Origin: Taxawa tesnikishii (nom. ined.)
Taxonomy: Eukaryota; Ascomycota; Dothideomycetes; Dothideales
Direction: 5' to 3'
DNA length: 64,000 nucleotides
Assembly: GCA_030247885.1 (NCBI GenBank)
Contig: JAPDRO010000009.1
Location: 806,001-870,000 of the forward strand
Position 1 is the stretch's first letter. The number at the start of each line of letters is the position of its first letter. The translations under genes were made by a program, and so were the position numbers. The notes beneath the pieces are model-generated. The model had not been told where the DNA came from and made no database searches. It saw only the letters and a list, made by a program, of their open reading frames with translations. Positions 470-2,230 of the stretch are shown here, one piece after another.

Positions 470-1102
470 TTCAGTGTTGTGCTCTTTGAGACTGTGGTGC
501 CTGTACACATGCTTGTGGTTACACGCTTGTGGTTACACATGATGTACTTTGTACTCTGGGCCTAGCCTTTAATGGCTACTAAGCCGCGGCTGATGCCTGT
601 CGATTCGATCCTTTGTGACGTGCAACGCCAGGTCGTAGGGCTGAGTTCTCGGCTGATCTTTTGATCTTTTTACAAATCATTGTGCTGGATACTAACAAAA
701 ATACTTCGACCAATGCCACCCTTTGCTTGTTGGAACGCGAAGCGATCAATTAGTAAACACTGTCTTTATAATCTTTCCCGCTTCCTGGCACAGGCACAGC
801 ACCTCACGTAACGGACAGAAGCGTCTGGGACACGCTCGGTCGAGTCTACTGCACGCATAAACACGCCCCTACAGCCCACCGTCCCCCCACTTCGTAACAC
901 AAAAATCTCCTGCATCTAGCAAAAAGCCGCCAAACTGTTCAGATCAGCCTTTCGCCGTGCAGGCTCTACACCCTTCCGCGCCTCTCTCGCACTCCCCGTC
1001 GCAGCAGCCGCTTTCTACAGACCCACCGCACCCTCTTCGCCTACGCTCCCCTTCGTGAAACAAGCCCAAGCGGCCACCTTCTCCTCGACTCCAGCGCGCA
1101 AC
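470..1102 (+). promoter_or_regulatory. intergenic region and 5' region of TRR1
   Basis: No separate gene is visible here. A TATA-like TTTATAAT at 765-772 is followed by pyrimidine-rich sequence, so transcription of the reductase probably starts near 780-800. From 920 the sequence is open in the TRR1 frame all the way to its first AUG at 1103 (see the next entry). Confidence 0.4.
935..1102 (+). other. in-frame non-AUG leader of thioredoxin reductase
   Basis: After the in-frame stop TAG at 917-919, the TRR1 frame stays open for 61 codons before the first AUG. From CTG 935-937 it reads as a 56-residue segment rich in Arg, Ala and Ser with almost no acidic residues (KLFRSAFRRAGSTPFRAS, then LPVAAAAFYRPTAPS). 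This is typical of a mitochondrial presequence. The CTG sits in a near-ideal initiation context (GCCGCCAAA before it, A at -3). No upstream AUG in this frame is seen. Inference: leaky initiation at CTG makes a mitochondrial isoform and AUG 1103 makes the cytosolic one. A spliced upstream AUG exon is the main alternative. Confidence 0.55.
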
Positions 1103-2230
1103 ATGCACTCCAAGCTCGTCATCATCGGCTCCGGCCCAGCAGGCCATACAGCGGCAATCTACGCCGCACGCGCAGACCTCAAGCCCGTCATGTACGAGGG
1201 ATTCCTCGCTCTCGGCATCGCAGCAGGCGGCCAACTGACGACAACCGACGAGGTGGAGAACTACCCGGGCTTCGTGAAGATCCAGGGTGCAACATTGATG
1301 GACCAGATGCGGCAGCAGTCCGAGGCTTGCGGGACGGAAATCGTGTCCCAGACGGTCGGCAAGGTGGACCTGTCGAGCCGGCCGTTCAAGTACTGGCTGC
1401 ATCCAATGGGCGACGATGAAAGCCTGGAGGAGGAGACGCACACTGCCGACAGCATCATCATTGCTACGGGCGCGAAGGCCAGGAGAATGGATCTGCCGGG
1501 CGAGGACAAGTACTGGGGCAACGGTGTGTCTGCGTGCGCGGTCTGCGATGGCTCGTTACCGATCTTCCGCAACAAGCCTTTGGTCGTGATAGGTGGTGGT
1601 GACTCGGCAGTGGAGGAGGCCATGTACCTTACCAAGAAGGCCTCCAAAGTATACGTGCTAGTGCGGCGAGACGTGCTGCGCGCCAGCAAGGCCAACGCTC
1701 GGCGACTCTCGTCCGACCCCAAGGTGGAGATCCGTTACAACACTGTGGCGGCGAAGATTACGGGCGAAGAGAAGGCTAGGGGACTCATGCAGGGATTGGC
1801 GATCAAGGATCTCAAGACGGGCAAGGAGGAGGAACTCCAGGCGAATGGATTGTTCTACGCCATCGGACATGAGCCCGCCACGCATTTGTTCAAGGGTCAG
1901 TTGAGGATGGATGAGGATGGGTATATTATCACGACGCCGGGGACTGCGCATACGAGTGTTGAGGGTGTGTTTGCGGCTGGTGATGTTCAGGATAAAAAGT
2001 ACAGACAGGCGATCACTAGCGCAGGTGAGTCCATCTCGTCCAACGCCATGAAGAGGTATACTGACATTTTCTTCGCAGGCACCGGCTGCATGGCCGCTCT
2101 CGAGGCCGAGAAGTTCATCGTCGAGCAAGAAGGTCCGGAGAACGAGCTCGAGGCGGACAATGAGGTGAAGAAGGGCTCGGCAGACGCCAAGGGCGACGTG
2201 CCAGAGTATAGATCGAACCCTTTGCTGTGA
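1103..2230 (+). CDS. TRR1: thioredoxin reductase (NADPH)
   Basis: This flavoenzyme passes electrons from NADPH through FAD and a redox disulfide to thioredoxin, for ribonucleotide reduction and peroxide defence. The predicted 357-residue protein has the low-molecular-weight family plan: FAD-binding GSGPAG at residues 9-14, GGQL..TDEVENYPGF, the redox-active C145-A-V-C148 with D149, the NADPH-binding GGGDSA, and the second FAD motif FAAGDV. The C-terminus PEYRSNPLL is the usual fungal ending. One 54-nt intron (2025-2078, GTGAGT...CGCAG) interrupts TSAG|TGCMAALEAEKF. It has no in-frame stop, so retention would insert 18 residues. AUG 1103 gives the cytosolic length. The upstream in-frame leader suggests a second mitochondrial form. 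Confidence 0.95.
   Translation: MHSKLVIIGSGPAGHTAAIYAARADLKPVMYEGFLALGIAAGGQLTTTDEVENYPGFVKIQGATLMDQMRQQSEACGTEIVSQTVGKVDLSSRPFKYWLHPMGDDESLEEETHTADSIIIATGAKARRMDLPGEDKYWGNGVSACAVCDGSLPIFRNKPLVVIGGGDSAVEEAMYLTKKASKVYVLVRRDVLRASKANARRLSSDPKVEIRYNTVAAKITGEEKARGLMQGLAIKDLKTGKEEELQANGLFYAIGHEPATHLFKGQLRMDEDGYIITTPGTAHTSVEGVFAAGDVQDKKYRQAITSAGESISSNAMKRYTDIFFAGTGCMAALEAEKFIVEQEGPENELEADNEVKKGSADAKGDVPEYRSNPLL

Follow-up and report, generated by a model that had tools for sequence, protein, structure and literature searches.

In S. cerevisiae, one gene, GLR1, is said to give both mitochondrial and cytosolic glutathione reductase through alternative starts, reportedly in work of Outten and Culotta from 2004. 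The thioredoxin reductase Trr1 of S. cerevisiae is reported to have a verified mitochondrial form with a presequence, read from an upstream non-AUG start, from 2019 work cited in a review (PMC11653698). In K. lactis, one TRR gene is highly similar to TRR1 as well as to TRR2 of budding yeast, its annotated protein has a predicted presequence of 29 residues, and thioredoxin reductase activity in both fractions is mentioned as the authors' unpublished data; a second sequence with weak similarity is annotated, and the authors do not decide between one gene and two (PMC2754438). Trr1 of Cryptococcus is described as preferentially mitochondrial (PMC12386961). For N. crassa, frequent dual localisation through leaky starts has been predicted; the work, which also covers Cryptococcus, deals mainly with tRNA synthetases and AUG pairs, in which a leaky first start and a presequence precede a strong second AUG in frame, and its main text has no mention of thioredoxin (PMC7049704). 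As to how well a CUG can serve as a start, CTG had about 50% of the activity of ATG when tested with an ALA1 reporter (PMC2909995), and the near-cognate starts of N. crassa cpc-1 stayed below 1% of reporter activity in vivo, which counts against CUG use (PMC5487733). In U. maydis, a peroxisomal form of Pgd1 is read from the near-cognate codons AGG AUU, its targeting signal being concealed in the 5' UTR (PMC7214817). Bol3 of A. fumigatus also has mitochondrial and cytosolic forms through alternative initiation; there the second start is an AUG (Met41) past the targeting sequence, and the mitochondrial form comes from the other start (PMC11285713). Among the titles listed from a library that lacks most subscription journals, none pointed to a mitochondrial thioredoxin reductase read from a CUG in a filamentous fungus.

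The gene considered here, TRR1, lies on the forward strand of the window, by which we mean the whole 64,000-nt stretch of DNA that was analysed. Its first exon extends from the proposed cytosolic AUG at 1103 to position 2024 (1103..2024), and is followed by a 54-nt intron at 2025..2078 (GTGAGT...CTGAC...CAG), predicted from the sequence, and by a second exon at 2079..2230 that carries the stop. The spliced translation is open to its end, and the protein from AUG 1103 has 357 residues. Since the intron is a multiple of three and free of stops, the raw open reading frame reads through it, and retention of the intron would leave the message in frame. Exon 1 scored 356.7 bits against TIGR01292 (cut-off 343.45), and solved thioredoxin reductase chains aligned with it from residue 1, PDB 7ytv and 6bpy over query residues 1-307. 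The nearest solved relatives were 7ytv, 6bpy, 5w4c, 3d8x and 3itj, the last two of which we take to be yeast Trr1. The organism is probably a filamentous ascomycete. CAVC, presumably the CxxC redox pair, is present in the translation, as are GSGPAG and GGGDSA, presumably FAD/NADPH motifs. AUG 1103 thus opens the reading frame of a low-molecular-weight thioredoxin reductase. No fungal orthologue was seen among the 80 listed of 564 relatives in prokaryote genomes; these 80 carry bacterial titles and do not exceed 56% identity. Viral contigs gave no relative.

An earlier note on this DNA had proposed that TRR1 could supply thioredoxin reductase to cytosol and mitochondria through the choice of start, in place of the two genes of budding yeast. 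A search of the whole genome (29.4 Mb, 34 contigs) with the exon-1 protein returned TRR1 itself and one 23-bit match, at the glutathione reductase locus. One TRR gene was found, in an assembly of uncertain completeness, and within this assembly no second gene for a mitochondrial form was found. The contrast with budding yeast does not hold cleanly, since according to the review Trr1 itself has a verified non-AUG mitochondrial form besides TRR2.

The region upstream of AUG 1103 is laid out as had been described. An in-frame TAG at 917..919 limits the start of any long form; the frame is open from 920 for 61 codons up to ATG 1103; and five codons after the TAG lies a CTG (935..937) in the context GCCGCCAAA CTG TTC, the proposed CUG start of the mitochondrial form. 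From this CTG to position 1102 (935..1102) the frame would encode LFRSAFRRAGSTPFRASLALPVAAAAFYRPTAPSSPTLPFVKQAQAATFSSTPARN, presumed to be a cleavable presequence. The leader is basic, as claimed, with six Arg, one Lys and no Asp or Glu among 56 residues, for a net charge of +7, and its best 11-residue hydrophobic moment was 0.72, a value without a control. A Pfam search with the translation of 920-1102 gave no match. When nine near-cognate codons were scanned, in-frame sites in the leader were CTG 935, ACG 1043 and GTG 1055. An ATG is found at 713, and the next is ATG 1103, with none between; 166 of 25602 sampled forward windows of the genome were free of ATG over 387 nt. Start contexts were scored with a matrix built from the first ATGs, presumed to be starts, of 56 ORFs of at least 250 codons. 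CTG 935 scored 1.44, which puts it at the 68th percentile among these first-ATG contexts, and 5.5% of 10443 CTGs scored as well in a 264-kb sample that comprised the window and twenty 10-kb stretches of one contig. AUG 1103 was placed at the 95th percentile of first-ATG contexts and GTG 1055 at the 30th, and the context of ACG 1043 was very poor. TRR1 has the open, AUG-free extension with a near-cognate start that is sought in a non-AUG dual-localised gene, and its leader has presequence character, being basic and acid-free, with amphipathic values that have no control. A serine/threonine-containing stretch ends the leader before the AUG, as it does in the leaders of GLR1 and thioredoxin described below. 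The pattern FS[ST][ST] shortly before M was set aside as a leader mark, with 13 matches in the 264-kb sample, mostly unlike presequences.

The features of the leader differ in how far they depart from chance. Open length was dropped as evidence: the 264-kb sample holds 123 non-overlapping ORFs that are 150 codons or longer (TRR1 included), and 25 of them have at least 61 open codons upstream of the first ATG. The absence of acids, by contrast, is unusual. At least 40 open upstream codons were present at 38 ORFs, TRR1 among them, and no other ORF of this set lacked acidic residues in the last 56. Basic charge is weak evidence, because a second open frame over the same stretch (898..1419) is equally basic, with a net charge of about +8, one Asp and one Glu by manual count. 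We also applied a combined test that required one of the codons CTG, GTG, TTG and ACG, a purine at its -3 position, and after it at least 20 codons without an acid or an ATG and with a charge of at least +4. Among 194 ORFs that are 100 codons or longer, two passed, namely TRR1 and a 24-residue TTG leader on another stretch (L035). When 935-1102 was shuffled with dinucleotides preserved, 5.6% of 20,000 shuffles were open, ATG-free and acid-free with a charge of at least +7. Synonymous codon usage was 0.088 in the leader frame vs 0.036 and 0.159 in the other two frames, and was dropped as evidence because it was higher in another frame for both the TRR1 and the GLR1 leaders. Local base composition accounts for part of the unusual look of the TRR1 leader, and the shuffles and codon usage back leader coding weakly. 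Taken alone, the TRR1 leader is suggestive but falls short of proof.

Farther upstream, a pattern search found TTAGTAA (reverse complement TTACTAA) at 750..756, which we take to be a Yap1-type site; TTASTAA has a density of 0.019 per kb in the 264-kb sample. A TATA-like TATAAT was found by pattern scan on the forward strand at 767..772. It sits 17 bases past TTAGTAA, and both are upstream of TRR1. In both S. cerevisiae and K. lactis, TRR1 is among the targets of Yap1 (PMC2754438). Together, TTAGTAA 750 and TATAAT 767 suggest that transcription begins upstream of 935, with a predicted start between TATAAT 767 and 935. One short intron was read in each of TRR1 and GLR1, both with a CTGAC branch site. 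To look for splice forms that would supply an AUG, we enumerated introns between 45 and 400 nt long (YAG acceptor, YTRAY branch site, strict or relaxed donors) together with ATGs no more than 300 nt upstream of the donor; no in-frame join was found for TRR1 (donors from 561) or for GLR1. Downstream of CUG 935 there was no hairpin beyond chance (z +0.55; 137 of 200 shuffles folded at least as well), and the idea of a hairpin that slows scanning just past the CUG was dropped for this reason.

The strongest evidence for the TRR1 reading is an internal replicate in the glutathione reductase gene GLR1, because the same design recurs there with a similar CTG context. GLR1 lies on the reverse strand (L002, positions 1170-1287 of the reverse complement; G000:C16 near 369418). 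Its exon 2 scored 514 bits against NF004776 (cut-off 480) and 554.2 against TIGR01421, just below the cut-off of 556.15, and its best solved relative was 2hqm, a glutathione reductase. The layout reads in-frame TAA, then GTC GAC AAA CTG, then 35 acid-free codons, LSSLLASRSLLTAPARTAVHRLSNISRQFSSSSAI, with a net charge of +4, then the ATG of the catalytic protein, and there is no ATG in the 330 bases before this ATG. With gaps of three codons between stop and CTG in GLR1 and five in TRR1, the CTG is the sole near-cognate codon that heads either leader; further inside the GLR1 leader AGG, ACG and two ATC occur in frame. The GLR1 context is GTCGACAAA CTG TCT vs GCCGCCAAA CTG TTC in TRR1, so that 8 of 12 flanking bases agree, and agreement with the TRR1 context at 8 or more of 12 was seen at 27 of the 10443 CTGs in the sample (0.26%, TRR1's own included). 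The GLR1 CTG context was at the 68th percentile, the same as that of TRR1, and the GLR1 AUG was at the 79th. Shuffles of the GLR1 leader were as good in 10.1% of cases, so that by shuffling the GLR1 leader alone is moderately unlikely, and a multiple-testing cost applies, GLR1 having been picked out among 8 loci from a 10-match Pyr_redox_2 list of which TRR1 was one. The less expected point is that the two reductases of a single genome agree in their CUG design.

The shared pattern itself was dropped as a general CUG-start signal. CGMCAAACTGTYY occurs at 12 places in the genome, vs 7 for the reversed pattern, and the full layout was present only in TRR1 and GLR1; at none of the other 10 places was an in-frame ATG preceded by an acid-free leader that reached 20 codons. 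One of these places (L057) comes nearest in layout: the CTG follows a stop by six codons and precedes an ATG by 30, but the leader has two Asp and a net charge of 0. Another locus (L006), an FAD oxidoreductase that is mercuric-reductase-like, has near position 1453 a CTG whose -3 base is A; nine residues, FRALRRSSS, separate this CTG from an ATG, which places the leader below the 20-codon limit.

A related arrangement that uses AUGs was found for thioredoxin. Among 14 PF00085 matches (12 loci cut; L012 and L016 left out), one locus (L020) was the only stand-alone thioredoxin recognised, and we take the remaining loci examined to be disulfide-isomerase-like or multi-domain. This gene, which contains WCGPC, has a dual-AUG design on the reverse strand (positions 1015-1168 of the reverse complement; G000:C1 near 2612900). 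Its first ATG is in the weakest context class (0th percentile), and heads an acid-free leader of 51 residues, MSLKTALRRTLL...FQKRAFSVT, that is followed by a second in-frame ATG whose context is better but average (42nd percentile). At the AlaRS gene (L024, positions 227-395) the first AUG is weak, at the 5th percentile, and the second is strong, at the 96th. The leader between these two ATGs is presequence-like, with one Glu. AlaRS is a dual-AUG gene in N. crassa (PMC7049704). A leaky-start design appears to be used at several genes of this genome, with weak AUGs at thioredoxin and AlaRS and good-context CUGs at both reductases. A mitochondrial peroxiredoxin client with a TRR1-type leader was not found at the two PF00578 places read out of five: L138 reads VVEAASVMPEQGVVVGKSAPDFTC, and in L023 an in-frame stretch with Glu in it precedes MSAEGRPEPLRLG.

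These observations bear on how the two forms of the enzyme might be made. What the dual-supply reading predicts at the level of sequence was present throughout: a single gene, an acid-free leader, a CTG in good context, no splice route, and parallels at GLR1 and thioredoxin. We put a probability of about three in four on the reading that the single TRR1 gene serves two destinations, with a CUG-started mitochondrial form and a cytosolic form from AUG 1103. The TRR1 mRNA would start between the TATA-like box and 935, and scanning 40S subunits would then reach CUG 935, where the good context may allow a minority to initiate. The long form would be a precursor whose basic, acid-free leader directs mitochondrial import and is cleaved off before the catalytic domain. 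Most ribosomes would go on to AUG 1103, which has a strong context and no AUG before it in the interval, and would make the cytosolic enzyme. GLR1 probably behaves alike from its own CUG, and thioredoxin through a leaky AUG. If this is true, gene models of this fungus that start at AUG would lack the mitochondrial forms of both reductases and would falsely imply mitochondria without thioredoxin reductase, and start-codon stringency would become a testable control on the sharing of reducing power among compartments. The case would add to what is already reported for Trr1 of budding yeast and would introduce no new mechanism. A further reading, to which we give a low probability, is that a single rule sets the mitochondrial share of both NADPH-dependent disulfide reductases, namely leaky scanning at a CUG in the matched context CG(C/A)CAAACTGT. 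A shift in stringency, as under oxidative stress, would then move mitochondrial reducing capacity up or down in the two systems at once, with thioredoxin following by way of its weak AUG.

The leader might instead be untranslated 5' UTR, with an acid-free, basic look that comes from C-rich, GA-dinucleotide-poor sequence. The shuffles that equal it in 5.6% of cases fit this account, as do the second open frame across this stretch, which is just as basic, and a codon usage that shows no preference for the leader frame. We nevertheless consider it unlikely, given that the combined test was passed by 1 of the 193 other ORFs, that the layout recurs in GLR1 around a CUG in similar context, and that a comparable leader, there started by an AUG, is present in the thioredoxin partner.

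It is also very unlikely, in our view, that the CUG yields an N-terminally extended protein which stays outside mitochondria or is functionless low-level noise. In favour of this, thousands of human non-AUG proteoforms are reported to lack evidence of selection (PMC9789052), and yeast Trx1 and Trr1 are reported from the intermembrane space proteome as well, which makes the destination uncertain (PMC5601281). Against it stand the acid-free leader with its serine/threonine-containing end, like those of GLR1 and thioredoxin, and the dual-AUG thioredoxin, which would depend on the one thioredoxin reductase found.

The leader could also be translated from an AUG in an upstream exon, through splicing or an alternative transcript. 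The enumeration of introns described above gave no candidate join in either gene within the ranges covered, and we consider this route very unlikely, although the ATG at 713 together with the known use of alternative transcripts in dual targeting (PMC11653698) lends it some appeal.
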